Assembly: GCA_905160935.1 (NCBI GenBank)
Contig: CAJHZI010000537.1
Location: forward strand, 65,001-129,000
Reading direction: 5' to 3'
Length of the DNA: 64,000 nt
Source of the DNA: Enchytraeus crypticus
Taxonomy: Eukaryota; Annelida; Clitellata; Enchytraeida; Enchytraeidae
Part shown: one piece after another, positions 18,829 through 62,997 of the stretch
How the letters are laid out: every line of letters begins with the position of its first letter
How positions within the stretch are numbered: position 1 is the stretch's first letter
Translations under genes and position numbers: made by a program
Notes under the pieces: model-generated
What the model was told of the DNA's origin: nothing
Database searches by the model: none
The model's input: only the letters and a program-made list of their open reading frames with translations

Positions 18829-18851
18829 TTAGACTCCATCTTTTACTACAC
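18829..18851 (-). CDS. Receptor A exon 10, short terminal exon
   Basis: GVVKDGV then TAA. Homology to the tail exons of B and C continues to about 18715 (YEYLNLDDVT, a further TAG, MEYEQMD), but it lies beyond the stop. It is either a shortened tail or a decayed exon. Confidence 0.7.
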
Positions 18852-21800
18852 CTGCAATCAAACAATACCAATCTTGGAGACTTAAATGTCCAAATCAAAC
18901 GAAATTAATTGTAACAATTACAATGATCAGGTTTTACCCTAATTGAAACTGTAACAAAGGACATTCGTTTTATATTTTAAATCGTAAGTAAATTTTCTAA
19001 TGTCTTACTAGTGCAGTAGTAAAGTCATGAAGTTTTAAATGACAGATCCTGAGGTGAATTGAACCCTCGTGGGTTCGAATCCCTGCTGCGCTGATCTGAG
19101 AGTAAAATCTCGGACATTCCACTGGACTGGTTACACGGAAATTGAACAAATTGCCTATCGATTAAACATGTGGTATTAAAAGTGATAGATATCAACAAAG
19201 TCGATCATTTCACTATAATGCGTATTTACTGTTTAAGTGAACGGTTTACGGCTAAGGTGTCAACTGTAAGCAATGATAGTACAAACACTAGAGAATGTAG
19301 AGGTGTAATTGCGCACATCTTGTGCCTAATTCTCGATACAATTATTGACGGAATACCTGGACTACAGTAGATACAAGTAAAGAGGATATGGGACACCAAT
19401 GATTGCGGTAGACGAGTGTAACACCCAGTGTATTAATGAGGCTTCCTTGGCTAGGTAAGCTCTCGTCTTGAACAGAAACCCTTAGTGCTTCTGACTTTGA
19501 CGTTAAACCCACATCCTCGAACGATTGATTCGACGGTGAAGTCAATTAGATATCCCTTGATTTCGAATTTAATCGTTTCTAACAAAGTACAAAATTGTAA
19601 GTATTTTAGTTAGGGCATATTTGTCATATGCCATGATGTTTAAAGAAATCTTTCAATATCGACATGTAGGTGATTGTTTCAGTTGTCTGTACATCCTAAT
19701 TGGTGAGGCCATTGGCAAACAATGAATCAAATATCTAACGAATATTAATTATAATGTCAAATAACAATAATAAAATTAAATTACCTTCCTTCGAATAGAT
19801 GGCATTCAGGTTGTTGTTGTTACCTGTACATCCAGATTTTCTTGTCATCGCTGTGCGAAGTCTGAGGGGCCAATGAAACAAATATTTTTATAGAAATATT
19901 ATTGCTTATTTGTCAGTAGTTAATTTTACCGCGTTCAGATAATTATGCAGAAAGTGATGGATGACGTGAATTTTCCGAAAACTGAAATTGAAATATTATA
20001 TAGCAGACTGTTGAAATGTTACAAAGTTGTAAACAACGCGACAAGTTTCATGAGGCGACATTATTTTAATATATCAATGGAAAAGGATAGGATTCGCCGA
20101 GTATGACTGCTCTAAAAGGTCGCTACTTGAATGTAATATAATCGTTTTCAACAAAACTTATAGTTTATGACATAACGGGACAATTGGTCATAGAGTTTGG
20201 AGATCAAAACTAGAACTCAAAGAGAAACTTGATAAGTTATATAATATAATAGAATGTAGAAATTTGCTAAAAGTTGGCTGGAGTCAGTGGCATTGTCGTC
20301 AGATATTCGACTGCGGATCAGTATGTACGGGGTTCAAATCCTGAGCCCGCCCGTCACTGACATCGCTTTCGAGTGAGGAAACTGACGTTAACATTAGCCT
20401 TGCCAGCCTTTTTAAAGAAGCAAACACAATCAGAAGATAAGATATATGATGTATGACTTAAAGCCAATGCTTTAAATCCTATATCATGTTTCGAATAAAA
20501 AATAGGCAAATTAAAACAAGAACTAACCGGTGACGATACAAGACGCCTCTAATAATCCCAGCAATGATAAGGAGCAAGAGAATGATGATTACTGCTATGA
20601 ATGCACTTCTCCATGACTGCTCTGATCTCGCTATAGTAACACCTATCGTAGTATTTCCTGTGATCAAGTCAGTATTGGACAAAAACATTAGAAAAAGTAA
20701 AAGCTTCAAGATGTAAGAACATTAATTATCGACGTTTCATCAATAGATAAAAGAATCTGATAGCTTTAATTAATATTTACAATTATATTTTAAAGCAGGC
20801 CTAACCGATAAATATAATAAAATCTGAAATGTGTTACATTAAATGATTAATTGAACTTTGTTTGATATCTAAACTAATTTGTATGAATATCAATGAAAGC
20901 CTTGAAATATGAGCAATAAAACCTCATCAACTCCTCTTCCAGTTCTTTTCCTTGTAATCTCTTCCTTTTCTTCAAATGGTTCTCGTTTTTCTGAGTTGTG
21001 AATATTATCTCATTTACTCCAATCTAGCCCTATATTTTAAAAGCTCTTATCTGCTCTCCAATTTACAAGTAGGCCTAGTCCACAACTAATTCTTTTTATT
21101 GGCCTGCTTCACACGGTGATCAATTAAAAGGCTTTCAAGGAGTATTATTACTAGAGATGGGAATTTTATGAATTTCCGGAGTTCGGGTTCGGTTCGTTGA
21201 AAATGAAAGTTCGGTTCGGTTCGGGTTATGTTCTAACAAGGGTTCGGGTTCGGGTTCGGCTTGCTTTCCAACTCGCAAGAGTTCGATTCGAGTTCGAAAT
21301 GGTTTGGTTTGGATAATGTTGCAATTGTTTAGCATTACTTATAATAATCATGGTTATGACACACATTTTAAAAATGGTTTATGGTAAATATGCTTAAAAA
21401 TTAATTAAGTCATAATAGCTGCCACATTTTTTCACCTGGGTAAAATTATGACAATGGAAAAAGGAGAGAAGTGGTATTTATTCCTGTACATTTCTAAAAT
21501 TTTTGTTTTTTGAGCAACAAATATTCATCATATAGATATTTAGCTTTATTATTGTATCTGAAATAGTTTCCTTAAATATAACGAGCAAATAGAATGCTTC
21601 ATCAATTTTTTTATTTTTATTGTCACTATAGGCCTATATATTAGATACATTTATACTAAGTGGAAATGTATTGGCTAAAATTTGATCCAATATTTCAGAG
21701 ACAAAGTGCAATTTAGTAACATGAAAATGTCGAATAAGGATGATTTGCTAAACACGTGTACTTCCATAGAAAAATGATCATAATATACACCGTTTGCTAT

Positions 21801-22749
21801 CAACTGACCATTAATAGGCTTCATAATTTACCTTAGGGTTTCAAACTGGAAACTCTCAGATCAATTATGAAGTTACGAAAATAATTATGAAATTATTGCA
21901 TTGCTATAATGCAAAATTATTTACTCCAGATAGTCTTAACATATATAGAATGTCATATTTAATTATTTGTAAATCTGGCTGAAAAAATATTAAGGTAGCA
22001 CACTAAAATTTGAAAAAAAAATCATAATTTGAATTTCACAAGAACAAATCCACCTAGATTGAGTCAAGCATTTTCAGATTTTTATGGGATACTCTCATCA
22101 CTTTTGTCTCTTTGATGTTAATCTTCATTCCATATTCCAATGCCGTATCATTCAGACTATCCTATATCGTTTGTAGGCCCGTCTCGCTTCCCACTACCAT
22201 TCCTTTGTACCGCTACCATTTTAAAAATTTTGTCGGAACCAGCCTTACCTGAATAGATGCTGTTAGATACTGTAAGACATGTAAATGCAAAACTAATATA
22301 TATTTGCATTGTTCTAACTATCTTTATTTAATGTCAGGCTGGTGAAGAAGAAAGGAACTCCAAGAGTTTGGTTCAGTTCGGTTTGGACAAAGGCTGGGTT
22401 CGGGTTCAGTTCGGGTTCGGCCAGAGTCTGGGTTCGGTCAAAATTCAAGAGTTTAGGGTACGGTTAGGTTCGAGTTCGGTTCGATTCCCATCTCTAATTA
22501 TTACATAGTATTGTCTCTTACACTACAGTATCTTATAAAAATTAAAGTCGGACCCTGTGTAGCACTGATGTTGTTATACGAGCAGTCCTGTTGATCAGAG
22601 TTCAACACGTAGCCCAAGTAACAGGAACATTCGTACCCGCCAATGAGATTGTGGCAAATATGTTGACAGTACTTGGTCGTTAACTCTAGGGAACATTCAT
22701 TCACATCTGTAACATAACAGCCGATGTGATTATATGTATGTACACATCC

Positions 22750-22800
<51 letters not shown>

Positions 22801-22832
22801 ATACTATATATATATATATACATCTATATACA

Positions 22833-22876
<44 letters not shown>

Positions 22877-25800
22877 CTGGTTAGATAAGCTTTAATAGGG
22901 TCTCTACCGAGGAATAGATTTAGCTTCGGGAGGTTTCATTACCTACAGGCCTATAAAATTTTGTTTTGTCGCCTCTTAATTACGACATGTGCAGTAAACG
23001 ACTATCTTATTCTCATTTAGTTCCAGCACAATATATCAAGTATTTTAATTTAAGTTATCAGTAAAATAAAATTGCGTGATTTCTAGGCAAAATTAATATC
23101 CAAAGATGACTCAAAACGTGCATATTCAGATAAGAATAACTGTGACGGATGACTCTACACACCAGAGCATTGGTATCCATCAGATGAGAGCTCATAGCCA
23201 GCCTCGCAGGAACAGCTGTAGCCGTTCAACTTGTTGTGACAATTGTGCTCACAGAGATTTGTGTCTTTAGACAGGCATTCGTCCACATCTGTTAAAATAT
23301 TTAAGAATATTAAGCTTCTTCTTATCGTGTCCTCATACAGCATTAATCCGGCGCCTGTCACAATCTCTCGCCCGATCATTGAACTCTGCTGAATTCATAA
23401 TTAGATATCATGCAATTGTTTAATGTCTAAATTAAAATATTATATATGCAACGTATATTTTAATTAGTTTTTTTCATTTTCATCTCTCTACACCGCTGTT
23501 CTAACTAGTGGTAGGTGCATGCGATAAAGGCTGGAGCCAGTGGCGAAGTCGGTAAGACGCTTTACCGCGGATCTATATGTGCGGGGTTCAAATCCTGGGC
23601 TCTCCCGTCACTGACATCGCTTTTGAGTGGGGTAACTGACGTTAACCTTAACATTTTCAAAGAGACTGCCTTACAGATCCGTGAGAAATTTTTTGTCTTC
23701 TAATCCTTTCAAGGATCAATTAACTTAACTATAGCTTAACTATATTTGCTGTTGAAAAACCAAATGGCTGTAAGGTATACGATGTATTAGTTACCTTCTA
23801 GATGAACTAGGGTGATACCAAATTCTGGTTTCCTGACCTATGCCTTGAACTTACTTTCCCTAAGAACAGCCTTTAGAGATGAATACTCTTAACGATACGA
23901 GTCTTCTCATAGCAATATAGTAAATAATTTTATTTGATATAAGTACCCTCGAGACGTGCAAATATCTTAATGCCTGCATTTCGAACTGCTTAGAACTTTA
24001 GTGAGATTATGCATCACGAGAGGCACAAAAGACGGGCTGAACAGCGGGATATAGAAGTTGAGATTTGAAAGGTTGAAGGAACCTTTTTATGTTTTTTAAA
24101 ACTGAATTCAATTAAATTGAATTGAGGCTATAGAGCGGGGAAAAAGAAGATGGACTAAAGTGCGGGTACATATGCTGAACTCAAATGCGAGCACTGCTGA
24201 TGGAAAAACTGCGGCGTGGTCGTGTGAGCAGATATAACTTTGCAGTCAAACTTAAATTATATTTATCAGCTAAACATTATTGACAGGAGACGTTACATAC
24301 CTGAACAATTGAATCCATAAGATGAGAGCTCATAGCCAGCCTCGCAGGAACAGCTGTAGCCGTTCATCTTGTTGTGACAATTGTGCTCACAGAGATTTGT
24401 ATCATTAGACAGGCATTCGTCCACATCTGTCAAAAGTATTTGCTTTTACTATGTAATTAAAGTTAAAGGAATGATAGAAATTATTATTATTTGGTCGTAT
24501 GGTTAAACACATGACAACGGCATGTGTTTAACATTTTCATTTCTTTGGCTGCTACTTCAGTTGTTTTCTTTATTCTTTTTTCGCCTTCGTCTTCATGGCT
24601 ATTAGTAATCGTTGCCTTTGTTGGCAAATCAATTGCAGATATTGTCAGCAGGCGATCTTCTAAGGTGGTCATCCACAAAGTACTAGCCTGGGCGCATTGA
24701 ATCTTAAAATTCGTTCAATTGACGAATAGCTAAATCAAGTGAGCAAAATCTCGTCCCAAGATTATTAGCCTGGAATGCTATATCAGAGTACTATTAATAT
24801 CTTTCAGAGTAATTAAGATTATTTTATAAGTATAGCTATTAAATTTATGCAGAAATTCTAATTATAAAGGCAACTTAAATTTTAATGAGTTATTTGCATT
24901 TTATCTCTCTCCTTCTTTCTTTCCTCACTACCACTGTACTACCTAATGGAAGATCCATTTGATACAGTCTCTTTTCATAGTTATCTCCTCAGAATTTCGG
25001 CTAATATTTACATACCAAAGCTCAATCAGATCATCCACTACCCTAAGTCTAGGTCTTCCCGCACGCATTTCACTCCATTCATTTATCTCTTATAATTAAA
25101 TGTACATATTTTCGAACGTCTGTTTCATACAAAATGCATGCAAAGAACTACTGAGGGTTTGGACTAAAATTGATGTCATTGATCTCATAGTATGCTTTGT
25201 TATTTACAGCTGTGCTTATTGAGCCTAAGTTAATATGTTACTTCAAATTTTAGTCAAATTCAGTAAATTTCTATAAATGCTAACATCCTAATATTGGAGC
25301 CACTGAGTCGCTTTCTCATCGATTTGGCACCGAAACTACATTAAAAATTAAATGCGAGTCTAGTCTTTTGTCTATAATCTAATAAATTTGAAAATGTTAT
25401 GATTTGAACCGTCAGAGCAGGTAGGTCCCTTCCACTCAGCGGCACAAGTCCGATTTGGACAAATCCCACTCCTCAAGCAAGGCCTGGAGTCCTTACAGTT
25501 GCACTGATTCTCACAGTAGCGTCCAAACCAGCCTTTAGAACAAACTGTAAACAGTGAATATAATAGTTAATGTAAGATATAATATAAAACTCACAATGTT
25601 AACGCAAATCAGTCAAATATGTCTGGAATTCTAGAAGTAACTAGTCTTTTTCTTATATAGAATAATGAAAAAGTAGAATAACTTCAATACCTCGAAGCTT
25701 CAAAGCCCTTAAATGTGAATTCCTAATTCTCCAGAACCTATAAATTGATACTTCTTGACCCTCGATAACTAAGAAATTTAAGAGTCTAGTAAATTAAGAT

Positions 25801-25933
25801 AAAACCATGTAATATTGCACAACGAAGAAATATTATACCTTTGGATTCTTCATCAAAAATGATGTCAAGGATTAGGACACTCGAAAAACAGGGCCTCCAA
25901 AAACTATGCCACTCAGTACACCTATAGAGCATT

Positions 25934-25967
<34 letters not shown>

Positions 25968-26001
25968 TATATGTACATGTATATATATAATATATATATA
26001 T

Positions 26002-26041
<40 letters not shown>

Positions 26042-26128
26042 ACCTGCCAGTAGAAAAGTCATTAAGATATATATACATGTATATATATAAATATATAAAG
26101 TATTTTCTATATACAGTATATATACATG

Positions 26129-26165
<37 letters not shown>

Positions 26166-26189
26166 TTACCTGCCAGTAGGCAATGCACT

Positions 26190-26234
<45 letters not shown>

Positions 26235-29160
26235 GTATTTATACATATATACTCGTATATATATACATATACATGTATGTAGGATATTCAAATAACAAAC
26301 AAGGATAATAGCTACTCAAATTTCTAGGCTAGTTACCCGTGTACACGCTGTTTCTCAGACTTCCACCACACTTCTGTGTAATGTTTCCAGCACAGGTATT
26401 ATTACATTCGCTCTCAGGTGTCCTTCCGTACCTATCATAGTACTCTCCACAGTAACATTCTTGTGAGAACTGTGTCATACAAAATAAAGCGAACATCTGC
26501 TTCATCTGAGGACTCTATGGCTTGTAATTATATATTTGATATTTTGTGTTTCTGATCGAAATTCCTCGTAAAAGTGTGACGATTAATTGATTAATTAATT
26601 AAGATTGAACGATAAAGCCAATAGGAAATAAGTAAACAGAAGGTGAAGGCCAGACGCAGTTTGTTGGCACACAAATGCTGTTTTTGTATTGTCGATATTA
26701 GCAGTTTGATCATAAAAGCACAAGATAATCGTTTTCATGTGTTTCTTTCTTATTAGAAGATAGGAAACGAAAAAAATTCTTTGGAGCCGTATGTAATCAT
26801 CAGCTTCTACGGGGTAAATACCAATATAAATGTCAATTTAAGGAACATTTAATAATTTATCCTGTATTTATCATTGTGTTCAATGCACTGTTACTCTGCA
26901 AACGACTATCATCTGTAGCAACGCGTAACGTAATGACTTTTATACCCAATTGGGCTGGTTTGTTGGCACAAGAGCTTCTTTGGGGTTTTGGTTATCTCAC
27001 CAATCTTAGACCATTCCAGGTTTTGTTCCTCTTTAAAATATATCTCTACAAATCAGTTTGGGTGAATCGGTTGATAGGATGTGGCTTGTGGAGACGTGAG
27101 TGGCATTATCTTTGAAGGAAAAATTTCGCCTCTGCTATGATAGGGGATTACTTCAGGCAGGTATATGGATATTCAATGAAAGGCCAACTACAAATTAAAT
27201 TAAGAAAGCTGAAGTTCCTTTCGCAGTCGGACGCACATACATATAGTCGGTGATAGAAATCATCATCATCTTCCCTTAAATCCCAGGTTAACCAGGGTCG
27301 GGATACGAATAGACTTATTTATCCATTAGTTTAAGTTTTGTGGCAATTACTGGAGCCTAGGCGCTCACCAACCGAATGTCCTTTCTGACGTTGGTATGGA
27401 TCTTAGTGCGTTAGTCGCCTTCTACGACACGTGCAGTCACCGGTTGGTCAAATTCTTCAAACGACTCGGACACAATACGGGGAAGTCGGTGATAAAAATA
27501 AACTAAATAAAATGTTTTGCATTCTCCTAGCAAATGATCCATTAGGCCTAGATCCTACTGAATAAATCCTACGAAAATAGAGATCTTACAAATCGAACTG
27601 CCCTAATAACTGAATACTATAGATACGAACTTGTGTTCCGAAGTACGTATTCTCAGTTTTGATGAAGCAGTTCGATTGACACAGTTGCGGAGTAAGTGTT
27701 AATTTCATTTCAGTATAACTCCCAAGCAGTGCCCGTGGTTCACCATCACGATAGCATCCGACATAGTTCAATGAGATATCTCCAGAATCTTAAATGAAAT
27801 AAAAAAGTCGTATGGCCTTAAAGCTTTAAGTTTGCTTGACATGACTTCGACAAGCAGAAATATAAACAGTTACTTAGATATAGCAAATTAAAAGTTGTAA
27901 CAACCTATAAATGTATTACAGACAATTACTTAAGGCTATACTTTGCTTGACATGACTTCGACAAGCAGAAAAATTAAAGCTTGTTACAACTTTTGAATGC
28001 TATATCTATGTAACTGTTTATATTTCTGATTGTCGAAGTCATGTAAAGCAAAGTATAGCCTTAAAGCCATTGTCTGTAATATATCTAAAGCTTGTTACAA
28101 CTTTTAATTTACTATATCTATATAACTATTTATACTTGCTACTTGATGTTTAGTTGAATTCACCCACTCTATCTTAAAGAAATATAATATATACCTTTTA
28201 AAATACTATGAAGATCAAAGTCATCTCATTAAGTATTAGTTAAAAGTCACAAAGCTCCTTGCAAGAATAATATTAGTTACTTTAACTAATATTATTCTTG
28301 CAAGGAGATTTGTGACTTTTAACTAATATATAATTTAATCAGATGACTTTGATCTGCAAATTTGAAGACATTAAAAAAATTTTCATTCAGACGCAAGGAG
28401 GATATAAAAGATTTAAAAAAAACTCCCATCAACCTTCTAAGTCTCAGTTATATTTCTATTTCTTACTGCTCATATACAGTATTATCCATATACTCTCTAT
28501 GCGAACATTCATATGTATACATAATCACAAATTTTAATAATTTACTGGCTGTTGTTTAGCCAGTGGCGAAGTCGATAAGACATTCGGCTGCGGATTAGTG
28601 CGGGGTTCCAATCCAGGGCTCGCCCGTCACTGACATCGCTTTCGAGTGAGGAAACTGACGTTAACATTAGCTTTGTTACTCCCGCTTTGAATTGGCCTAT
28701 TTTATACTATTGACATAAATATATTATTGACGTTAAGATAAATTAATGACTTTTCACAAATATTTGGCAACAAGTTTGCAAAACTTAACTTCCATAGAAT
28801 TGCATCAAGAGCGTTCTCTATCTTTAATGGAAATGCTAAACATCTTAAAATTAACTTTTAGTTTAAAATAAATTTCTTAAATTAACTTCACTATGAATCC
28901 GCTGATTAAATTCTCACTGAATTGTTCTGAAGTTAATTTGAAGTACTCTTCTTTCGGCTACTCTGAGTTTGAATCCTTGTGAGAAAAGGGGCGTCAAATA
29001 ATTATGGCATTGACCGAAGACTCAATAATTTGTAAATGACGGTTCAAGACATATTAAATCGGTACTTACCGGTCGCTTCTATTTGAAAGGTTAGAGCAAG
29101 TAAACCGAGGAGTACGTGTATTTGAGCAGATATCATCGAGCCTCTTTCTCTTCTCATCAT
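18829..29160 (-). CDS. Receptor A: WSC-EGF-3x cbEGF-TM protein
   Basis: Ten exons on the minus strand in order 29070-29160, 27631-27788, 26337-26469, 25410-25544, 24301-24426, 23163-23288, 22554-22706, 20528-20657, 19785-19861 and 18829-18851 sum to 1152 nt, exactly 383 codons plus stop. The product has a signal peptide ([13 protein letters not shown]), a WSC domain (YVGCY, YFGTQ, ECYCGE), an EGF-like domain, three Ca-binding-type EGF domains (D-V-D/N-E-C starts), a membrane segment and a tail of about 30 residues. WSC domains bind carbohydrate in other proteins; ligand binding at the cell surface is inferred. The tail stops at GGAGTC-TAA, where copies B and C have TAC, so tyrosine motifs further along the same exon are not read. 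A hAT-like element, SINE and LINE pieces lie in its introns. Confidence 0.85.
19006..19233 (+). mobile_element. SINE-2 copy
   Basis: TAAAGTCATGAAGTTTTAAA, GGGTTCGAATCCC and GTGATAGATATCAAC are in order. It lies in the intron between the last two exons of receptor A. Confidence 0.82.
19235..19784. other. Receptor A intron, nothing recognised
   Basis: Small frames on both strands lack splice or domain support. Confidence 0.5.
19785..19861 (-). CDS. Receptor A exon 9, juxtamembrane tail
   Basis: [19 protein letters not shown]...SKEG, 77 nt, phase 2-1. The N-rich stretch comes from AAC repeats and varies between copies. Confidence 0.78.
20276..20413 (+). mobile_element. SINE-1, full length
   Basis: GGCTGGAGTCAGTGGCATTG through GGGGTTCAAATCCTGAGCCC to TTGCCAGCCTTTTT, in a receptor A intron. 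Confidence 0.85.
20528..20657 (-). CDS. Receptor A exon 8, transmembrane segment
   Basis: GNTTIGVT, then [20 protein letters not shown] and a basic stop-transfer LYRHR. Donor CACCG/GTTAGT, phase 2. A, B and D share this donor and C has GTGAGC. Confidence 0.88.
21152..22496. mobile_element. hAT-like non-autonomous element, copy 1 (1345 bp)
   Basis: Terminal inverted repeats TAGAGATGGGAAT / ATTCCCATCTCTA are flanked by an exact 8-bp target duplication ATTATTAC (21144-21151 and 22497-22504), the hAT signature. Both subterminal zones are packed with GGTTCGGGTTCGG-type repeats facing inward. No transposase frame. The matching intron of receptor B (about 40655-40690) has GAGTATTGTTACATAGTATT without the insertion. 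Confidence 0.9.
22554..22706 (-). CDS. Receptor A exon 7, cbEGF domain 3 (second subtype)
   Basis: 153 nt. [29 protein letters not shown], and a linker NNISATQG before the membrane. The same subtype occurs in B, not in C or D. Donor GG/GTCCGA is non-consensus. Confidence 0.82.
22755..22870. repeat. (TA)n tracts
   Basis: Alternating TA interrupted by ACATGTATATAC and ACATCTATATACAG. Confidence 0.9.
23163..23288 (-). CDS. Receptor A exon 6, cbEGF domain 2
   Basis: 126 nt, phase 1-1. [17 protein letters not shown] and [13 protein letters not shown]. Nearly identical in layout to exon 5 and to copy D, so these exons multiply by duplication. Confidence 0.88.
23529..23657 (+). mobile_element. SINE-1, full length
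   Basis: GGCTGGAGCCAGTGGCGAAG, GGGGTTCAAATCCTGGGCTC and GTCACTGACATCGCTTTTGA in order, in a receptor A intron. Confidence 0.88.
23660..24300. other. Receptor A intron with weak similarity to copy D intron
   Basis: GAGATTATGCATCACGAGA near 24004 matches 60319 in copy D, so it is old duplicated intron. No other feature. Confidence 0.5.
24301..24426 (-). CDS. Receptor A exon 5, cbEGF domain 1
   Basis: 126 nt, phase 1-1. [17 protein letters not shown]... ending in a C-S-G boundary. The D-x-D-E-C start and the later Y-S-C-S-C are the calcium-binding EGF signature. Confidence 0.88.
24890..25110 (-). mobile_element. LINE C-terminal fragment
   Basis: Minus strand reads [18 protein letters not shown], parallel to GRGRPRLGMLDDLKTHSY of the copy at 55266-55640. 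Short, truncated remnant in a receptor A intron. Confidence 0.6.
25410..25544 (-). CDS. Receptor A exon 4, EGF-like domain
   Basis: 135 nt, phase 1-1. [17 protein letters not shown] starts a laminin/MEGF-like EGF domain ending [13 protein letters not shown]. Donor GACG/GTTCAA. Confidence 0.85.
25925..26240. repeat. (TA)n complex with two LINE-tail scraps
   Basis: TA/TACA repeats are interrupted twice by CCTGCCAGTAG motifs (about 26042-26065 and 26167-26192), which are the reverse of the LINE end that normally precedes (GA)n. I infer two LINE termini whose microsatellite tail is TA-type. Confidence 0.6.
26337..26469 (-). CDS. Receptor A exon 3, WSC second half
   Basis: 133 nt. [19 protein letters not shown], then [11 protein letters not shown] and NSVYTG. 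This completes the WSC fold with its C-G-G motif. Acceptor ACACAG, donor GTAACT. Confidence 0.88.
26870..27480. mobile_element. Old repeats in WSC intron of receptor A
   Basis: 26960-27110 resembles the LINE 3' end (TGGGTGAATCGGTTGATAG...GGAGACGTGAGTGGCAT) and has relatives in the same intron of C (about 52960-53070) and D (about 63180-63300). 27250-27480 contains the dispersed repeat with GTCGCCTTCTACGACACGTG. Confidence 0.55.
27631..27788 (-). CDS. Receptor A exon 2, WSC first half
   Basis: 158 nt. It contains [15 protein letters not shown], then L-T-x-x-x-C-x-x-x-C and TYFGTQ. Donor CAA/GTTCGT is non-consensus but shared by B and C. Confidence 0.88.
27810..28130. repeat. Inverted-repeat element with duplicated arm
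   Basis: TTGCTTGACATGACTTCGAC occurs twice in direct order, then reversed as GTCGAAGTCATGTAAAGCAA. The arms continue through ATATAAACAGTTAC and AAAAGTTGTAAC. A distant relative lies at about 46862-46905. MITE-like, no coding content. Confidence 0.75.
28213..28354. repeat. 142-bp near-perfect hairpin
   Basis: GATCAAAGTCATCT at the left end is exactly reversed as AGATGACTTTGATC at the right. The inner arm (ATTAGTTAAAAGTCACAAAG...) is reversed across a loop of a few bases at about 28283. Foldback element in receptor A intron 1. Confidence 0.85.
28556..28676 (+). mobile_element. SINE-1, slightly 5'-truncated
   Basis: GCCAGTGGCGAAGTCGATAA through GCGGGGTTCCAATCCAGGGC to TTAACATTAGCTTTG. Confidence 0.85.
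29070..29160 (-). CDS. Receptor A exon 1, signal peptide
   Basis: MMRRERGS, a hydrophobic core and IEAT, with donor ACCG/GTAAGT (phase 1). Upstream ATGs in the same frame exist (to 29226); the MM pair or the inner M-I-S-A-Q would give a normal signal peptide. This is the only signal exon found for the four copies. Confidence 0.8.
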
Positions 29161-34667: not shown

Positions 34668-34879
34668 TCATTTACCTAGATCTATTTTATCGCATTCCAT
34701 CTCTGTAACGTTACTGACGTCACCTTGATTCAAACACGTCATCTCATTATCTGTTTCAATTTTATCGTATTCCATATCTGCAACGTCATCTGCATTCAAA
34801 TAGTCATATACTGTGTGTATTTCGTTCTGAGAACTGTTTGTTCTGTCAATACCGCAGTAGACTCCTTCTTGCGTTGCTC
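34668..34879 (-). CDS. Receptor B terminal exon with tyrosine motifs
   Basis: 70 codons from GATQEGVYCGI to DKIDLGK and TGA. It contains a repeated unit of about 30 residues: ADDVADMEYDKIETDNEM and GDVSNVTEMECDKIDLG. In the second unit the tyrosine is Cys. The full-length reference against which A, C and D can be compared. Confidence 0.82.
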
Positions 34880-43276: not shown

Positions 43277-43309
<33 letters not shown>

Positions 43310-45627: not shown

Positions 45628-45639
45628 CTTATGTAAAAT

Positions 45640-46687: not shown

Positions 46688-46726
<39 letters not shown>

Positions 46727-47330
46727 TGAATATCCTGAAATATCGAATGTTTAAACTTAAAAACATTACTTTTAAATTATAGACAGCTGTATAGATAGGC
46801 CTATAGCAAGCTGTGATTTATAGCAATCTATTAATATATTACAGGAAATAGTGTATAATGGCTATACTTTACTTGATTTGCCTCCGACAACCAAAACGAC
46901 GCATAATTTAACTAATATAATTCTTTCGTGAAGCATTTTGCTGCTGAACTAAAATAATAAAATAGTAAATTATAAATAGCTCAGTAAACGATATTAAATA
47001 AACAGAAAATCTAAATTTAATTTCCATTCAGATTAGAGAGACTGTTTAAGGAACTCTAAGGGCCTATTGAGGGCCTATTGAGGGCCTATAACGGCCTGTT
47101 AATTAAGCTATTTGTACGTGTAGTCTTATCAGTCATCTGAAAGCGTCATTTCTGCAACAAGCAGCCATTCAGTATCAGCTAATGAAAATTCTATAGGCCT
47201 ACTAGACTCTTATTAAAGCAAAACCTGCTATCTACCAACTTAGCAGGGAGTTACTTCAATTCGAGGTATTTGATATAAATGGCGATTGCTTTCAACATGA
47301 AATCACTTATATTACAATAGTTTAGCCTTG
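45640..47330. other. Between receptors B and C; no gene found
   Basis: The receptor B signal exon should be here or further upstream but was not found. Contents: the short-hairpin repeat (about 45740-45800), a degenerate LINE tail (45850-45990), a (TA)n run (46690-46725) and unassigned sequence. Confidence 0.5.
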
Positions 47331-48480: not shown

Positions 48481-48493
48481 ATTGTATCTTAGA

Positions 48494-48617: not shown

Positions 48618-48619
48618 AG

Positions 48620-49270: not shown

Positions 49271-49383
49271 CTATTTATATGTACTGGATTTATATGTCTC
49301 TGGATTCACATATTCATAGCAATTGTGTAATTCGTCCTGAGATGGTTTGTCATTACCGCAGTAGACTCCTTCTTTTGTTACAC
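49271..49383 (-). CDS. Receptor C terminal exon
   Basis: [20 protein letters not shown], then CYEYVNPE and [11 protein letters not shown]. Colinear with the start of the B tail exon but ending before the M-E-Y-x-K-I repeats. Confidence 0.78.
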
Positions 49384-49959: not shown

Positions 49960-49995
<36 letters not shown>

Positions 49996-50127
49996 TTTAT
50001 TATTATTATTATTTTTTAAATTATTTTTTATTACCCCGGTGTAAAGAACCTGGGGTTTGATAAAAACGATTCGAGCAATACGTGCTGAATCGCCGCCCGG
50101 CTACTCGAGGTCATCAATCGGCTAAGC

Positions 50128-50160
<33 letters not shown>

Positions 50161-53100: not shown

Positions 53101-53619
53101 TTCTTCTGGCAAGAGAACAGATTTTTATATGTGTAGACTAACCGTGTATTGGACTTGTCGTAAAAGGCGACAAAGCACTAGTGTGACACCAAAGTCAGAA
53201 AGGTCATTCGGTTTGTGAGCGTCTAGACTCGAGAAATTTCTACAAAATTTTCTAATCTCCACCATGTTTAACATTTATATATTTACAATCGCGGAAAATA
53301 CAAATGCTATCCGTAGCCTTTATTAACCGTTTCACTCTTACTTACGGAATGCTGCTTTCATATTCCTGTAAAATGTTCGATCACTTTTATATGTGTATGA
53401 TGTGACAAATGTAATAAGTAAAATAAAAAAAATAAAATAAAAAAATACTTTCGACACGAACTTGTGCTCCGAAGTACGTATTCAGAGTGCTGACTAGGCA
53501 GAACGCTTGACACAACTGCAGAGTCATGACACCTTTCCCATCGACAAAAACTCCATCCAGTGACCGCGGTAGGGTATCATCATAGCATCCGACATAGTCC
53601 AACGAGATTTCTGATGCAG
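49271..53619 (-). CDS. Receptor C: WSC-EGF-TM protein without cbEGF domains
   Basis: Exons on the minus strand: 53462-53619, 52668-52800, 52052-52186, 51067-51175, 50166-50239 and 49271-49383 (722 nt; signal exon not identified). Phases match A and B. The EGF exon is followed directly by the membrane exon; since both join in phase 1 the loss of cbEGF exons keeps the frame. The EGF domain has Ser-Ser (GSSAADW) where the others have a Cys (RTCAAEW), so one disulphide is lost. The tail is short but intact: [20 protein letters not shown], then [17 protein letters not shown] and TAG. The frame of the first exon is open back to an ATG at 53680 (MILIYLYGILSISILCNFL), which could act as a signal peptide by reading into former intron. 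Confidence 0.82.
49930..50155. repeat. (ATT)n with the 75-bp CCCCGGTG repeat
   Basis: ATT arrays flank a near-exact copy (50032-50102) of the repeat at 43203-43275, extended here by CTACTCGAGGTCATCAATCG. Confidence 0.8.
50166..50239 (-). CDS. Receptor C juxtamembrane tail exon
   Basis: [20 protein letters not shown], then VFVAEG. 74 nt, phase 2-1. Confidence 0.78.
50245..51060. other. Receptor C intron; short TACAATGATTG repeat
   Basis: Four to five copies of ACAATGATTGT at about 50470-50522. Paralogous segments with the D intron (GGGTTTTGTCG near 50335 and 57451). Confidence 0.55.
51067..51175 (-). CDS. Receptor C transmembrane exon
   Basis: [27 protein letters not shown] then ICRNR, 109 nt. 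Acceptor ATCTTAG, donor GTGAGC. Confidence 0.85.
51180..52050. other. Receptor C intron lacking cbEGF exons
   Basis: I looked for D-x-D/N-E-C exons on the minus strand in this interval and found none. A CT run is at 51985-52010. Confidence 0.6.
52052..52186 (-). CDS. Receptor C EGF-like domain with a lost cysteine
   Basis: [34 protein letters not shown] and CSD. The fifth-position Cys of the other copies is Ser. Confidence 0.85.
52230..52660. other. Receptor C intron with diverged CACTCAAATA repeats
   Basis: GTTTCGTCATCCAAAAATGA, then CACTCAAATATCTAGG-type units, homologous to introns of B and D. Confidence 0.6.
52668..52800 (-). CDS. Receptor C WSC second half
   Basis: [20 protein letters not shown], then [11 protein letters not shown] and NSVYTG. 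Acceptor TGTGTAG. Confidence 0.87.
53462..53619 (-). CDS. Receptor C WSC first half
   Basis: [30 protein letters not shown] and TYFGAQ. Acceptor CTGAAAG, donor CAA/GTTCGT. Confidence 0.87.
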
Positions 53620-53624
53620 CTTTC

Positions 53625-55260
53625 AGAAAATTACACAGAATGCTGATAGATAATATTCCGTAGAGATAGATTAGGATCATAATGCAGATAGTTCCTAAGA
53701 CGGCCTTTTAACATAGGCAGAAGTGAACGAGTTTAATCCTTGAGAAATTGATACTTTGAGTTATCGTTAAATAAACCAGTTTCAAATAAAGTGATTAGAA
53801 TAAAAAGTTTAAAAGTTAATTCTTGAGCGAAATTCCGAGAGAAGAAAGTCGTACGATATTTTGCATAAAATTACTACCGTAGGTTGATAAAGATCTGGGT
53901 TAGGGAAAAGTTTAAGTAACACGGTTAAAAGCTACAGCTCTTTCACGGAAAGATCTCACTTTTTTAATCAAATGTTTTGGATAGCTTAATGGAAAGCGAC
54001 TTTTCACTACTCCGTAAGGAAACGAGATACGAAACCCAGGCAGGAGAAGACAAGTGCAGAGGACAAGGTTAACAAACCAACAAATAATTTAAAATATGGA
54101 AACTACTATAATATCATGTCATGAATCAATACCAAATGAAAAGCATACGTCGACCTACTTGCTGAGGAGGCAATTCCAAATTCGCAAATAACAAATTTGA
54201 AACATATTTTAAGCTATAAATTAAATTAAATATAAATATTCGTTCATAGAACCGTAGACGAACCGTCTGACTGCACTGTTTTCGATCTCATATTAGACTG
54301 ATTTAGGCTACTACTCATTCTGCTTCCTACTCGCAGCTTGCATCGTGTTAATACTATATTAGCCGGTTGAATTAAAACGGCTAAACCCACGTTAAATGTG
54401 ATTTTAGCTGATTTATACGATTATATGGCGAAATTTTCTATATACAAAGATTAACAGATTGGCAAAAATATTAAGTGTTAAACTTTTACTGGTAGAAACC
54501 AATAGGCTACACTCTGAAAAGTCAGGCATACGCAGATATGGGAAGAGGCGTTGCTCTTTAATGTCTCATAGGGTGTGGTTAACACGTCAAATTAGTTCCA
54601 CATTTCAATGATAACTTAATAGCCGCAATGTTAGTTAAGGGTTACTAAGTAATTTTGAACAATTATCGTCTTACAGCCAGTAGATATATTATATAGGCGG
54701 TTGCCTAAAGTAGGCAGATTTTTAAGGCCACATAATTCAATTACTATAGTTATGTTTTAAAATAAGAAATTGTTTAGACACCTTCCATATTTTACATGGG
54801 ATCGCAAAATATATTGGGCCCCTCAGTAATTTGTATTTTTATAATGTCTTCCCCCCAACGCCTGAGACAGATCGCCTCCATTAGCTAAACATAGCAATGA
54901 CAGTGGGAGTCGGTGGTCGGTGCTTAAATAATTATCTACAGCAACAAACGACCAAGTCCGGGTCATCAGTCGAGAGAACTACCAGATGAACATATGAATA
55001 AACTCATTGAACTTTCCCTAAGCCGAGCTTTATCTCGTACAAAACAAAAACTCTAAAATACGAAATTAACTTTTGAATTCAATATTATTTTCAGAAGAGA
55101 ACTATTTTCTTTCCCCTATGATTAAAATCGATCGATACAAAGATGAAATCTCAGCTTCTCGTCATTCCCCTCTTGCAACTAGTCAGTGACGGTGTGAGTA
55201 TACTCTAATTTTAAATTAGCATCGACTAATCGGACAGTGTCGTATCCGTACTACAAACGC
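53625..55260. other. Upstream of receptor C, no gene found
   Basis: A separate signal exon like 29070-29160 was not found. AT-rich unassigned sequence. Confidence 0.45.
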
Positions 55261-56580: not shown

Positions 56581-56605
56581 GGTAATTCGTCCTGAGATGC
56601 GACCG

Positions 56606-56643
56606 TTATTCAGTATTGCAGGAGGATCCTACTTTTGCTACAC
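56606..56643 (-). CDS. Receptor D terminal exon, short reading
   Basis: VAKVGSSCNTE and TAA if the conserved acceptor (TTTCAG) is used. See 56361-56580 for the region beyond. Confidence 0.6.
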
Positions 56644-59600
56644 CTGAAATCAAACAGTACCAAATTTGGAGATCAATGTAAGAATAGAACTAAAACCTAT
56701 TTGAAATCGGTCGAGATTAAATTTGATCAATCATAATTTATTGGATTTTTTTAGTTTTTGTTATAATTTGTCTTTAGAGTTTTAGAGTCTAAATCGGTTG
56801 AATCTGACTCTAAAACTTTAAGGTGAAAAAATAAAAAAATAAAAATAAATATTGTGCACCAGCCTAATTTAAACTCTAAAAATTACAATCATGGGTAGTG
56901 ACACAGATAACGTAAAAACTGTTGTAGATAAAAGTAGCGCATATATTGTACATATTTTTGATGTATAATTCCCGAAAACTTTATTACAGGATTCCATAAA
57001 AGTGTATAGGATATGATGCACCGGTGAAGAAAATTGCTCAGGAGGCTGTGTGAAAATTAGCAAATTTAAACAACAATAATTATATGCATTTTGATGCGGC
57101 CATTTATTTGTTAAAAGACTGAATTTCAAAGTAATGCTTCAAGATCAAAGTGACTCTTTCAAATGTATTTCCTAACTCACTGATGAGAGTAATGCCGAGT
57201 AATGAGTGAACTATCGAATGAATGAGAAAATTGATAAAGAATAACAATAATTAATTATTATTATTATTCATATTATTATTACATCACCTTCAGTGACAAG
57301 TACGACGTCGAGGTTGTTGTTGTTGTTGTATCCAGAGTTGCTGTGTCTCACAGGGCAAAGGCTGTAGAGGAATAGAAAATAAATAACTGCTATTTTGATA
57401 GAAATAGTCAGACTCGAAACCTGTTCCCAAGCTCAAGTCTGCATGTGATCGGGTTTTGTCGGTCTTGATCTTGTTCTTGATCTCGATATTTTCGGTTTGG
57501 GTTAGGGTTTTAAGCGCTTGGTTCCGAGATATTTATAATATTATTTCGTTAAATTAATTTTGTTGAAGTAAAATCAGAAAGTAAAACGGCGAGGTCGTGA
57601 TGCACATCAAAACGACAAGTTTGCCGGTGAAAAAACATAATATACGCTGAGCGAACATACTCTTAAAGGTCGCTACTTGGCCGTAATATGACGGTTTTCA
57701 TAAAACCTAAGCAATCTTTATGATGTAGCAGGTCGAAAATATAATTAGACATTAACACATCGACGCTATTATTATGTTTACACATTGCTAGATCATTATG
57801 TCAGTCGAGTTGCCTAATTCTCCAGACTATGTCCGCTTAGAAAATATTTCTAAATTATGTTAACCTTGTTTCCTTTTCTTAATTAAACAAGCACAATTGG
57901 TATAAGAGAAATGATTAGAGTAAATGACAAAATACGTCACTGAATGCAAACAGGAAAGTGTTCGACTGACCTACATAACTACTCTAATAGCAGGCCTATG
58001 TCTGAGGTGTATCTGAAAACACTAACTAGAAAAGATAAGTTACGACTGTTTGGGCAAAATATTCAATTATTTCACGAACCCAAAGCCAAAGCACTCATAT
58101 CAATGGCATACAAAACATTACTTAGTATTTGATGAATGGGATAAGAATTATGAAGAGAAACTGGAGAAGAGGTTTGACAAAATGCGTTAGTTTGTTTCGT
58201 AAGCAAAAACAAGCCAGGCCGTTGTTATCGGTTTCGTAGTCCGGTCGCCGGTCATAATACTGCTAATGTCGGAGGCCTCTATTTTCATCAGTATAATTTA
58301 GAACTAACAAGAGAAAGGATAGGCTTTGTACGGCTCAAGACTCTTGCTCTAAACACATCTCTTCCCACCATAGACTTTTTCATCTTGCCTGACTGTATTT
58401 TGATCACCGGACCGGCACCGTTTAGGATCTTTTTCTTTCTCTTCAGCACATGTTTTTTCCGGTCGTTTGGGGTGAATCGATTTGTAGTGACATGTGATGG
58501 GTACGTCCCTGACATCATCATTGTAGGAGGAAGCGGACATTAAACCTTTATTAATATTATTGTTATTATTAATTTTATTATTATTAATCCTGTATGGTTT
58601 TCCAAATTGAATAATAAAATAAACCGTGAACTAACCGGTGACGACAGAGAGCGCCAGTAATAATCACTGCAATGATAAGTAGCAACAGAATGCTAATTAC
58701 TGCTAAGAAGGCACTTCTCCAGGACTGATCTGATGTCACCGTAGTAACCCCCATGGCGGTTTTATGCTCTATGACACCTGAATAAATATGCATATCGTAT
58801 AAAAATATGAAAACAAAATACAAGCTTCAGGAATTAAAGACTAGAGATTTAGGCGAATCTCCAATATTTAAGGCATATTTAATGGATTAGACTGATAGCT
58901 TAAACTAATTATTGTATCTGATAGCTATTATGAAATATCTGATGGACTGAATTAAGTGATTAATTAAACTTTCATAGTTAAGCTAATTAGTATGAAAATC
59001 GACGACAGCCTTGAAATTTCATTAGAGCTTCTTCATAAATACTTTTCTTTATAGTTTTTCTTATATTCAAATTTACAGGCGTTTCTGTAAGCCGACAAGA
59101 TCCCTCACCTAAATGTAAACGCGCATTATAGTGAAATGATAAACTACGTTGATATCTATCACTTTTAGTACCACATGTTTAAACCGTTAGGCAAGGTAGA
59201 CCATATATCCGATATTTTACTCTCGGCTGGGATTCGAATCCTCGAAGGTTTAATTCACCGCAGGATCTGTCATTTAAAACTTCATGACGTTACCCCTACG
59301 CTATTGAGACATTCTACTAGACATTTCACATACTCCAATCTGCATTTAAAAATAATCTACGAAGCCGATGTTAACGTCAGTCTCTTCTCTCCAAAGCCAT
59401 AACACTGACGGACTTATAATCACGGTGTAGTGCCAAAAATTACACTATAGATTTGTAAGCAATTATAATTTGGAATGTCTCATTAACGTAGTGGTTAGAG
59501 GTGTAGATAACGTCATGAAGTTTTACATGACCGATCCTGAGATAAATTGAACTCTCGCGGGTTCTAATTCTTGCTGCCCTGATTAAAGAGTAAAACATCG

Positions 59601-59921
59601 GACTTTCACTGGACTGGATACTGGTAAAATTTAATTAATTGCTATCGGATTTAACATGTGTAATAGATATCAACGTAGTTGATCGTAGCGCTGCAATGTA
59701 TGTTTTCTTATTCTACCTCTTCTTCTTATTCTTCTACTTCTAGTAAATATCATTCGAAATGTCAATTGCGTAACACTTAGATATACATACCAGAGCAACT
59801 GAATCCACCAGATGAGAGCTCATAGCCAGTCTCGCAGGAACAGCTGTAACCGTTCAACTTGTTGTGACAGTTGTGCTCACAGAGATTTGTGTCTTTAGAC
59901 AGACATTCATCCACATCTATC

Positions 59922-59959
<38 letters not shown>

Positions 59960-62900
59960 CTAGCAATTTTAATTAATGTACTATGCAACAATTAAGTTTC
60001 AAATATTACATGTTACATAGAGTGGAACATAAATTTAATTAGCTGTTTACGTTTTCTCTCTGCTATTGAAGAAAACTTAGTATATTACACAATTGGAATT
60101 GCTTAAGCCTTTTCACACAAAGCAGAGTAAAATGGATAAGGCGTAGACTTTTTGAAATGATTAACTTATAGATCTAAGGAGTGCTCCTATGAGCGAGAAA
60201 GCAGACTTTGAGTATGAATATGTACCCTGAATCTGCTACTTGGCAGTTCACTGAAGAAGATACCACAATTTAGTGCAAACCTGTTAATGACTGTACTTCA
60301 ACGAGCCTCGAACTTTATTGAGATTATGCATCATGAGATGAAAAGACTAATATAAATAATAACTTATAAGGCTCTAACGTCCGCTTCATCATACAAGGAT
60401 GATGTCGTGGACGTCCCCCCAATCAAATGCTACTACAAATCGATTCACCACAAACGATCTGAAAAAATATTTGCCGAAGAAAAAGTAAAAGATTCTAAAC
60501 GGTGGCGGTCCGGTGATAGAAAAACAGTCAGACTATAAAATAAACCACGAGGTACAGATGACGGAGTAAACTGCGAAGCACAGATACTGAACGAAATTAC
60601 GGGGCATAGATGACAGACTAAGGTACTGGGCACGGATACTGAAAAAGTTCGGAGGAAAAAATGATGGCAAAAGCTGCGATTTAGGCAGATATAAAATTTG
60701 CAATAAAACTTTAACTATCAGCTAAACATGATTGTGACCGATGACTCTACGTACCAGAGCAACTGAATCCATCAGATGACAACTCATAGCCAGTCTCACA
60801 GGAACAGCTGTAACCGTTCAACTTGTTGTGACAATTATGCTCACAGAGATTTGTGTCTTTAGACTGGCATTCATCCACATCTGTCAAAAATATTTGTTAT
60901 TATTATGTAATTGTTGTTATGTTATTTAATGTTAGGTGTGGAATACAAATGTTGATCTAAAGTTCGAGGCATAAATGATGGACTAAACTACTAAGCTCGG
61001 ACACTGAAAGAAAGTTCGGAGGCAAAAATGATGGAAAAGACTGCAGGTATAAAATTTACAATCAAACTTCAATAATCAGATAAGCATGATCATGACGGGA
61101 GACGTTAAATACCAGAGCAATGGTATCCATCAGATGAGAGCCCATAGCCAGCCTAGCAGGAGCAGCTGTAACCGTTCAACTTGTTGTGACAGGTGTGCTC
61201 ACAGAGATTGGTGTTTTTAGACAGACATTCGTCCACATCTGTCAAACAACTTATAGCTCATTTAATATTAGAAACTCTTATTTATTTAATATTAGAACTT
61301 ATTGCTTAGAGATTTGTATCTTTAGACAGGCATTCGTCCAAATCTTTCATAAAAAGTGTATCTTATTTTACAATTAAAATTAAAATAACTAGAGAAATAG
61401 GAAAAATTATACTGAAATCTATATTGTACAACTAACTGTTTTCTAGTTGAGCTCTCTCTCATAGCATAGTGTTATACCTACAGTAAGAGGTTTATGATAT
61501 AGAAATTTTCAATATACTTTTTTTCGGCTTTCTTTTTATATTCCGATGAAAATGAATTACCACACAATACAAAAGTAACACTAATTACATCTCAGACATA
61601 TGGTGAGTATACATTTTTATTTAATCGCAGCGTCATTTTTATATTTTCTAAACACCAAAGCTAATAAAAACTCTATCATTTGTAGAGTAAAACTCTATGG
61701 AGACTAAGAATTTAATCCAAGCCTCATACTTGTAATCCCAAAAGCAAGCAAAATTTCATTTATAAGAAATTTTTAGATATTGCTTTCTTGAGAAATGTAT
61801 GGTACATTGGTAGAACGTCCGCCTTATGATTAAGAGGTTAATGTTCAAGTCTAGGTTCAATAAAAAGAGGCCATTTCTCTTAGATGTTTGCATTTTTGTA
61901 CACGCGAATATCTACAGTAGTTCTAGTATCGTATAAATCTAGGTATCCAACCTACTATATTTTCATTCCATATATTTATTTCTGTTTGCGCGTACATATT
62001 ATTTGAAATAAATAAAATTTCACGACTACCAGCAACAGAGACTAATCTCATTGTCTGAGAGCAACAACTGCTGGTACGGCGATTATGCAACGAAAGTAAC
62101 GCTATATAAAGTAAAACGTTAAACTTTTTTAAATTTCTTATTTCTTGTCTATTTATGTGAGTGTTTAATGCTTTGTCTATTAATGAACTTAATAATTTTA
62201 TGATTTGAACCGTCTGAGCATGTAGATCCCGTCCAGCAAGCGGCACACTTCCCATTCTGACAAGTCCCGTTCCTCCAACACATCGAGGGTTTCTCACAAT
62301 GACACTGTTTCTCACAGTAGCGTCCATACCATCCTTTAGCGCAAACTGTAAACAGTTAATACAAGCTGATCAATCCTTTACTCATTCCAGCGTGTTTAAC
62401 AAAGCTATATTTATTATTCAATTGATTGCATAGAATACAACGACACTAAATTGTTATATCTGCAATGCTTTGCAGCCATTAAATGTGAATCCCTAATTAC
62501 TTAGAAATCATAATCTGACACTTCTTGACTCCTAATAGCCAAGACATTTCAGCGCTTAGTTAATTAAAAAAGTTGTAAGCTTTCGGTTTCATCATCAAAA
62601 ATGGTGTCAAGAATTACGCCACTCAAATAACATGATCAGCAAAACGACTAGTCCACTTAACTAGCCATGCCACTCAGAGAGCTAGGCCACTCAAAAAGCC
62701 GGGCCACTCAAATAGCCAGGCCACTCAAAAAGCCAGGCCACTCAGAGAGCTAGGCCACTCAGAGAGCTAGGCCACTCAAATAGCTAGGCAAGTCAGAAAA
62801 CCTAGTCACAAATATAATTAGGTAACTCTGAAATCTAGGCTACTGAAGCAGCATGGCTAATTACCGGTAAAAACGCTGTTACTCTGATCTCCACCACAAT

Positions 62901-62997
62901 TTTGAGTAGCATCTCCATCACAGGCGGCTCGGCATTCGTTCACAGGTACCTCTCCGTACCTATTATAACTCTCGCCACAGAAACATTGATGATGGTA
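56606..62997 (-). CDS. Receptor D: WSC-EGF-3x cbEGF-TM protein (5' end outside window)
   Basis: Exons on the minus strand: 62865-62997, 62211-62345, 61113-61238, 60755-60880, 59791-59916, 58636-58777, 57288-57361 and 56606-56643. The first WSC exon and signal exon lie beyond 64000. It has three cbEGF exons of the first subtype, no second-subtype exon, and a membrane exon with a longer linker (GVIEHKTAMGVTTVTSDQ). In the terminal exon a 5-nt length difference from C shifts the frame, so the protein ends VAKVGSSCNTE and a large motif-bearing region (56361-56580) is left unread. Alternative splicing, a sequencing error or real decay could explain this. Confidence 0.8.
57288..57361 (-). CDS. Receptor D juxtamembrane tail exon
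   Basis: RLCPVRHSNSGYNNNNNLDV then VLVTEG. 74 nt, phase 2-1. Confidence 0.78.
58325..58560 (+). mobile_element. LINE 3' end with (TTA)n tail
   Basis: CCACCATAGACTTTTTCATC, TGATCACCGGACCGG, GGTGAATCGATTTGTAGTGA, ACGTCCCTGACATCATC and GACATTAAACCTTTATTA in order, matching 42770-43175. Confidence 0.78.
58636..58777 (-). CDS. Receptor D transmembrane exon
   Basis: [20 protein letters not shown] then ITGALCRHR. 142 nt. Acceptor TTATTCAG, donor GTTAGT. Confidence 0.86.
59100..59325 (-). mobile_element. SINE-2 copy, inverted
   Basis: AGTGAAATGATAAACTACGT, TGGGATTCGAATCCTCG and AAAACTTCATGACGTTACCC: the reverse of the family consensus. Confidence 0.82.
59471..59705 (+). mobile_element. SINE-2 copy
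   Basis: GAATGTCTCATTAACGTAGT, GATAACGTCATGAAG, GCGGGTTCTAATTC and GATATCAACGTAGTTGATC. With 59100-59325 it forms an inverted pair in a receptor D intron. Confidence 0.8.
59791..59916 (-). CDS. Receptor D cbEGF domain 3
   Basis: [20 protein letters not shown] and GYELSSGGFSCSG. 126 nt. Acceptor ATGATAG. Confidence 0.87.
60125..60255 (+). mobile_element. Degenerate LINE tail
   Basis: GGCGTAGACTTTTTGAAATG, GAGCGAGAAAGCAGACTTTG and ACTTGGCAGTTCACTGAAGA match 3420-3550. Confidence 0.6.
60365..60530 (-). mobile_element. LINE 3' end fragment
   Basis: CTAACGTCCGCTTCATCATA, GATGATGTCGTGGACGTCCC and CAAATCGATTCACC are the reverse of the 58325-58560 family. Confidence 0.7.
60755..60880 (-). CDS. Receptor D cbEGF domain 2
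   Basis: [20 protein letters not shown] and [13 protein letters not shown]. 126 nt. Confidence 0.87.
61113..61238 (-). CDS. Receptor D cbEGF domain 1
   Basis: [20 protein letters not shown] and GYGLSSDGYHCSG. 126 nt, phase 1-1. Confidence 0.86.
61300..61350 (-). pseudogene. Remnant of a fourth cbEGF exon in receptor D
   Basis: GATTTGGACGAATGCCTGTC and AAAGATACAAATCTCT encode [12 protein letters not shown], then diverge into a stop. It preserves the 5' end of a cbEGF exon, only about 60 bases upstream of the intact domain 1 exon. Confidence 0.75.
61793..61875 (+). other. tRNA-like fragment
   Basis: GTACATTGGTAGAACGTCCG resembles a tRNA A box and D arm. A possible anticodon stem-loop and CAAGTCTAGGTTCAAT follow. 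The acceptor ends do not pair, so it is a pseudo-tRNA or the head of another SINE, not a gene. Confidence 0.4.
62211..62345 (-). CDS. Receptor D EGF-like domain
   Basis: [40 protein letters not shown] and CSDG. It has an extra Cys (A-A-C-W) compared with A-A-D/E-W in the other copies. Confidence 0.86.
62620..62850. repeat. Intronic tandem repeat, unit about 16 bp
   Basis: GCCACTCAAATAGCCAG and GCCACTCAGAGAGCTAG units repeat about eight times close to the WSC exon of receptor D. Shorter diverged versions lie at the same place in B and C. Confidence 0.85.
62865..62997 (-). CDS. Receptor D WSC second half
   Basis: YHHQCFCGESYNRYGEVPVN, then C-D-G-D-A-T-Q-N-C-G-G and NSVFTG. Acceptor GACGCAG, donor GTAATT. 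Confidence 0.86.

Follow-up and report, generated by a model that had tools for sequence, protein, structure and literature searches.

Draper and MEGF10 are EGF-type receptors whose immunoreceptor tyrosine-based activation motif (ITAM) is phosphorylated by Src-family kinases and then bound by Shark or Syk, as set out in the available text of the reports (PMC8092387, PMC4503800). In the portions of the papers at hand, the oyster protein CgIgIT2 is described as a single-pass molluscan receptor with an ITAM and five extracellular Ig domains (PMC11999971), and the WSC domain is described in Kremen (PMC3927609) and in a trypsin-WSC fusion (PMC6767649). Here we describe an array of predicted WSC-EGF receptor genes in a 64,000-nucleotide stretch of the Enchytraeus crypticus genome (contig C444, positions 65001-129000; hereafter the window, to whose numbering positions refer unless a contig is named). 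The window holds four minus-strand receptor genes, 18829-29160 (A), 34668-46936 (B), 49271-53680 (C) and 56606-62997 onward (D). With gene E just beyond the window they form, by sequence, an array of five tandem type I membrane receptor genes. The general build is a WSC domain, an 8-cysteine EGF, zero to three calcium-binding EGF (cbEGF) domains, a membrane helix and a short tail.

We tentatively read these genes as members of a lineage-specific WSC-EGF recognition receptor family, in which some members have ITAM-like tails and at least one is a phosphatase, resembling Draper and MEGF10 in its working and not in its membership. From sequence, we give this reading a probability of about 0.45.

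Compared with Draper, MEGF10 and CED-1, the array genes are alike in being type I and EGF-bearing; an ITAM is present in Draper and MEGF10, and an NPxY motif is shared with one relative on contig C786. The described receptors, in the available accounts, have an EMI domain together with EGF repeats of the nimrod or another type, whereas A to E carry a WSC domain, one 8-cysteine EGF and cbEGF domains or none. The run of nimrod/MEGF repeats is absent, with one such EGF exon per array gene, and the tail combining ITAM and NPxY is found in neither B (strict ITAM) nor E (relaxed ITAM), both of which lack an NPxY motif; the 123k gene on C786 has both. Pfam scans of A to E (the models of C and D without their first exons) gave no EMI match, and orthology with Draper/MEGF10 was rejected on its absence. 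Kremen 1/2 resemble the array in having WSC (PF01822 in A, B, C and E), a type I membrane topology and a phase-0 intron inside WSC; they are unlike it in consisting of Kringle, WSC and CUB, as far as the available text goes. The same Pfam scans gave no Kringle or CUB match in A to E, and Kremen orthology was rejected because both are missing. Kremen is not known to have an EGF domain or an ITAM. CgIgIT2 is likewise an invertebrate single-pass ITAM receptor, unlike the array in its Ig ectodomain, with no WSC or EGF named in the text at hand.

Homologue searches, which depend on five-residue words in common and could overlook relatives, listed 22 proteins (6+1+15) bearing either WSC or EGF domains; by precomputed Pfam domains, none of them combines the two. 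We found no description of a WSC-EGF receptor family in the literature searched, which covered few subscription papers; automatic annotations of related genomes may name such proteins. The first-pass annotation had not recognised the architecture by name, in line with both results. In their working the array genes thus probably resemble receptors of the ITAM type, and their scaffold has no other description in the searched literature.

Exon organisation and ectodomain

Gene models were built by splicing exons in silico on conserved splice sites. In A to D the common order is WSC in two exons joined in phase 0, EGF, cbEGF (none in C), membrane pass and tail. WSC exon 1 is 158 nt in A, B and C, WSC exon 2 is 133 nt and the EGF exon 135 nt in A to D, and these exons align without gaps in the same phase. 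The cbEGF exons are 126 nt, with a last cbEGF exon of 153 nt in A and B. Lengths vary in the membrane exon (130/115/109/142 nt in A/B/C/D), tail exon 1 (77/71/74/74) and tail exon 2 (23/212/113/38). The membrane-to-tail join is in phase 2 in A to D and in the 123k gene on C786. The 36-nt exon flanks have a mean identity of 40-57% in 11 of 14 cases and 69-79% in the remaining three. The constancy of the exons is beyond chance because the ectodomain exons keep length and phase while 11 of the 14 flanks are only 40-57% identical. Every ectodomain exon found in A, B, C and E stays open. The number of cbEGF exons is three in A, two in B, zero in C, two plus one dead copy in D, and three in E. An alternative WSC exon 1 donor (gtattt in place of gttcgt) was rejected on inspection of the sequence, since its phase does not suit the next exon in all copies; the resulting TYFGxQ-x4-C of the chosen site also agrees with the WSC repeats of homologue P0007.

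The first-pass annotation had drawn the array from 18829 to 62997, and both ends hold: the tail of A stops at 18829, and D enters the window with an exon that ends at 62997. Its claim of a single membrane pass is borne out by one strongly hydrophobic helix per gene model (3.15-3.28). The sharing of WSC, EGF, cbEGF, membrane and tail exons by four genes holds for A and B; C lacks cbEGF, and D is a pseudogene whose WSC exon 1 lies outside the window. The identity of exon lengths is right for WSC exons 1 and 2, EGF and cbEGF and wrong for the membrane and both tail exons; the identity of phases holds for the ectodomain exons. The profile search it proposed detected WSC in three genes (A, B, C) and cbEGF likewise in three (A, B, D), and left the EGF exon below cut-off.

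The Pfam WSC match (PF01822) was significant in A (E-value 2.3e-16), B (2.5e-16) and C (1e-14) and was found in E too; the nearest solved WSC by sequence is that of Kremen-1 (E 5e-11). EGF_CA/cEGF matches exceeded the curated cut-offs in A, B and D. The EGF exon, with eight cysteines in A and B, fell below the Pfam cut-off in all four window genes (best DSL, 20.1 bits vs 24.2), and its highest-scoring hits, all weak, were to DSL, teneurin and stabilin EGF. The EGF exon is followed by 36 bases (25374-25410, 42509-42545, 52016-52052 and 62175-62211) that have a mean identity of 79% in A to D, equal to the conservation of the exon itself. They read GSNH[NK]I and on to a stop in A, B and D and run into a longer open frame in C; E is similar. 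These bases may encode a soluble isoform or may be an intronic splicing element.

The ratio of nonsynonymous to synonymous rates (dN/dS, w) was compared among A, B, C and E. For EGF exons w was 0.18-0.41 (six pairs) and for cbEGF exons 0.21-0.35 (three pairs), with dN well under dS in both. It was 0.17-0.73 for WSC exon 2 and 0.54-1.81 for WSC exon 1; the first WSC half is therefore the fastest-changing part of the ectodomain. Nonsynonymous change was higher in WSC exon 1 than in cbEGF (Fisher p 3e-8 for A-B, 5e-9 for A-E and 0.009 for B-E), and synonymous change did not differ (p 0.34, 0.35 and 0.63 for the same pairs). Constraint is likewise weak in the membrane exon, with w 0.30-0.71, and in tail exon 1, with w 0.40-0.86 and saturation in one pair. 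Positive selection on WSC exon 1 was considered and not established, at about 35 synonymous sites per pair.

Tails and relatives elsewhere in the genome

Where both halves survive, the tail module of the array reads Y[DE]Y[LV] and then, after nine residues, Y-x-x-[IVM]. A strict ITAM, defined as Yxx[IL]-x6-12-Yxx[IL] within the tail, occurs in the window in B alone (YDYL-x9-YDKI), a pattern reached in 2.1% of 100,000 shuffles of the B tail. C retains one YxxV, its second half gone, and A and D no longer encode the module in frame. The Y-x-x-I tails announced by the first-pass annotation are thus present in B and in part in C, and lost from A, which stops early, and D, which is out of frame. 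Its receptor cluster of copies differing in ectodomain length and tail stands, with zero to three cbEGF and diverging tails, and belongs to a family far larger genome-wide.

We searched the 524 Mb assembly for relatives. The PF01822 profile gave at least 80 matches on 30 contigs (150 of 182 candidates scored), and the EGF exon gave 25 matches on 11 contigs (61 of 61 candidates scored), five of them the array itself. For 16 of the 25 EGF-exon matches a same-strand WSC match lies no more than 10 kb upstream, against 0.02 expected; the nine without one are on C395, C299, C696, C447 and C564. Three stretches of C750 contain eight EGF matches beside WSC matches, and C750:835334-938970 has at least 19 WSC matches in about 104 kb. 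One stretch and two short loci of C765 have WSC without the array-type EGF. The sequence suggests that the WSC-EGF genes are a large recognition-receptor family. In a family tree of 14 rows, seven of 11 forks are open and only the C786 genes are set apart from the rest; we draw no family history because most forks are open.

On C786 we recognised seven genes or gene parts of the WSC-EGF kind, and tails were read for three. The 123k tail contains NPTY and then, at its end, YEAL-x10-YTPL, and so has both a strict ITAM and NPxY; shuffles of this tail gave the ITAM in 0.3% and NPxY in 1.7%. The 142k tail is 28% identical to it (E 5e-11) and ends in YETL-x13-YTEL. The 153k tail ends in YEVL-x11-YTQM and has no significant pairwise match to either of the other two. 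In a MAFFT alignment each of the three 123k tyrosines falls on a tyrosine in both the 142k and the 153k tail, two of them in the C-terminal YExL...Y pair. On the same contig, a WSC match at 262k and protein tyrosine phosphatase (PTP) matches at 235-243k lie on the same strand.

C447:30535-50840 contains WSC exons 1 and 2, EGF, eight cbEGF-like exons (identified by inspection, with tblastn also finding two), a membrane helix and then receptor tyrosine phosphatase exons. The latter include WPDHGVP (WPD) and HC|SAGVGRTG and are followed by a second set, giving a tandem PTP. Five of seven pieces match PF00102, and the exon phases agree wherever they are readable. The existence of at least one phosphatase relative is a pointer to phosphotyrosine signalling. 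The C447 relative is like the receptor-type tyrosine phosphatases in having a tandem PTP, here behind an array-type series of ectodomain exons; the window genes are unlike them in having no PTP after the membrane helix. Such phosphatases usually have an ectodomain of Ig, FN3, MAM or CA-like type. Among the 150 PF00102 matches listed (150 of 236 candidates scored) none lies on C444, and Pfam scans gave no PTP in the window genes.

Individual genes and their surroundings

All exons are on the minus strand and are given in the order of transcription. Gene A has a candidate signal-peptide exon (29070..29160), WSC exons 1 (27631..27788) and 2 (26337..26469), the 8-cysteine EGF exon (25410..25544), cbEGF-1 (24301..24426), cbEGF-2 (23163..23288), cbEGF-3 (22554..22706), a membrane exon (20528..20657), tail exon 1 (19785..19861) and tail exon 2 (18829..18851). 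The last ends at a premature stop where B has a tyrosine. Untranslated sequence homologous to the tyrosine region, containing a second stop, continues from there to about 18705.

Gene B has a candidate signal-peptide exon (46873..46936), WSC exons 1 (45470..45627) and 2 (44132..44264), EGF (42545..42679), cbEGF-1 (41910..42035), the last cbEGF (40722..40874), membrane (40065..40179), tail exon 1 (38471..38541) and tail exon 2 with the strict ITAM (34668..34879). A long GATGCAT-type satellite (44635-45138) lies between its WSC exons. Directly behind its tail, at 33470-34610 on the minus strand, are retrotransposon-like frames, which we take to have the look of a reverse transcriptase.

Gene C starts with WSC exon 1 (53462..53680), of which 53462-53619 is the homologous part and the rest a candidate 5' extension that reaches an ATG in frame and begins with hydrophobic residues; a scan found no signal exon. 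WSC exon 2 (52668..52800), EGF (52052..52186), membrane (51067..51175), tail exon 1 (50166..50239) and tail exon 2 (49271..49383), with its single YxxV and then a stop, follow; no cbEGF match lies between the EGF and membrane exons. A 185-bp block, 88% identical and apparently noncoding, stands downstream of A (18402-18585) and of C (48475-48659), and its conservation exceeds that of most parts of the array genes. It was rejected by inspection as a coding last exon, since third codon positions do not account for the differences and the sole long frame of one copy has a stop.

Gene D is a pseudogene. Two of its exons, WSC exon 1 (C444:129110-129285) and the signal exon (C444:129932-129995), fall outside the window; they are followed by WSC exon 2 (62865..62997), EGF (62211..62345), a dead cbEGF exon with an in-frame stop (61113..61238), two further cbEGF exons (60755..60880 and 59791..59916), membrane (58636..58777), tail exon 1 (57288..57361) and tail exon 2 (56606..56643). 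Its lesions are a stop in WSC exon 1 (an inverted repeat with a stop), the stop in the cbEGF exon and the frameshift of the last exon. Tyrosine repeats continue in another frame down to about 56370; no in-frame acceptor giving access to them was seen, and there is a stop upstream in that frame. Gene E (C444:135809-145168) is an intact fifth copy with three cbEGF, a WSC exon 1 of 164 nt and the tail motif YEYL-x9-YDSV.

Elsewhere in the window, on the plus strand, are a homeobox gene (10226-14553), whose homeodomain start presumably resembles HHEX, and long open frames with a tandem protein repeat of the type HHEQLGAEDHHEQHGAED (1227-2026).

Alternative readings and a possible mechanism

Several observations weigh against a signalling recognition family. 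A strict ITAM is found in one of four window genes and in one of three C786 tails, the 142k tail spacing its tyrosines 13 apart and the 153k tail ending in M. The tail of E, ending in V, has the relaxed ITAM only, a pattern that shuffling produced in 8% of E tails and 5% of B tails, and loose ITAM patterns are frequent in random frames of the surrounding AT-rich DNA. The second tail exon of B and E has dN 0.34 and dS 0.34, indicating no purifying selection overall. Some exons have weak donor sites (gttcgt, gttcaa), and the C786 and C447 exon series are taken as probable single genes from order, strand and phase. In addition YDYL, YDKI, YEYL, YEAL and YTPL also fit the YxxPhi sorting signal. 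The genes might then be endocytic scavenger or clearance receptors whose tyrosine motifs are adaptor-complex sorting signals with no kinase signalling, as would suit the NPTY in one C786 tail and a tyrosine pair spacing that ranges from 9 to 13. We consider this unlikely, given that paired tyrosines recur in B, E and three C786 tails and that at least one relative is a phosphatase.

The array on C444 might also be a decaying local duplication, mostly relics with little function left. The three lesions of D, the two premature stops in the last exon of A, and the shortened protein of C with no signal exon found by the scan would agree with this; the ectodomain exons found in A, B, C and E are nevertheless all open, and w of 0.18-0.41 in EGF and cbEGF exons makes decay quite improbable. 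We regard as more improbable still that these genes encode distant Kremen relatives acting in development as Wnt-type receptors, or in adhesion, with no immune tie. The closeness of the Kremen-1 WSC and the phase-0 intron that splits WSC, as reported for frog Kremen-2 in the available text (PMC3927609), point that way; the missing Kringle and CUB matches and the dozens of clustered WSC matches with local pseudogenes, unlike a conserved developmental gene, point away from it.

If the genes do belong to a signalling recognition family, the receptors would be placed on a surface facing cells or particles, with the fast-changing first WSC half as the putative ligand contact. Clustering might lead a Src-family kinase to phosphorylate the tyrosine pairs in tails like those of B and the C786 genes. 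By analogy with Draper and MEGF10, a Syk/Shark-like kinase with tandem SH2 domains could then bind the phosphorylated pair, leading to engulfment or activation. The tail-less A may bind without signalling, and the C447 phosphatase relative could set a threshold against the ITAM forms. Such signalling, the ligand and the expression of the array genes are what we infer, as is a possible immune or self-recognition use.

A more specific proposal, which we think rather doubtful, is a lineage-specific paired-receptor system. One expanded WSC-EGF-cbEGF family with ITAM-like (activating), cut-off (decoy) and tandem phosphatase (restraining) tails would provide immunoglobulin-free recognition of self, microbes or dying cells. 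To our knowledge, the best-known expanded invertebrate recognition families use Ig, SRCR, lectin or leucine-rich domains. If the proposal is true, a WSC-headed family of ITAM-like and phosphatase members would mean that activating/inhibitory pairing has arisen on a very different scaffold, and the array supplies named genes and exons with which pairing on a WSC scaffold may be tested.

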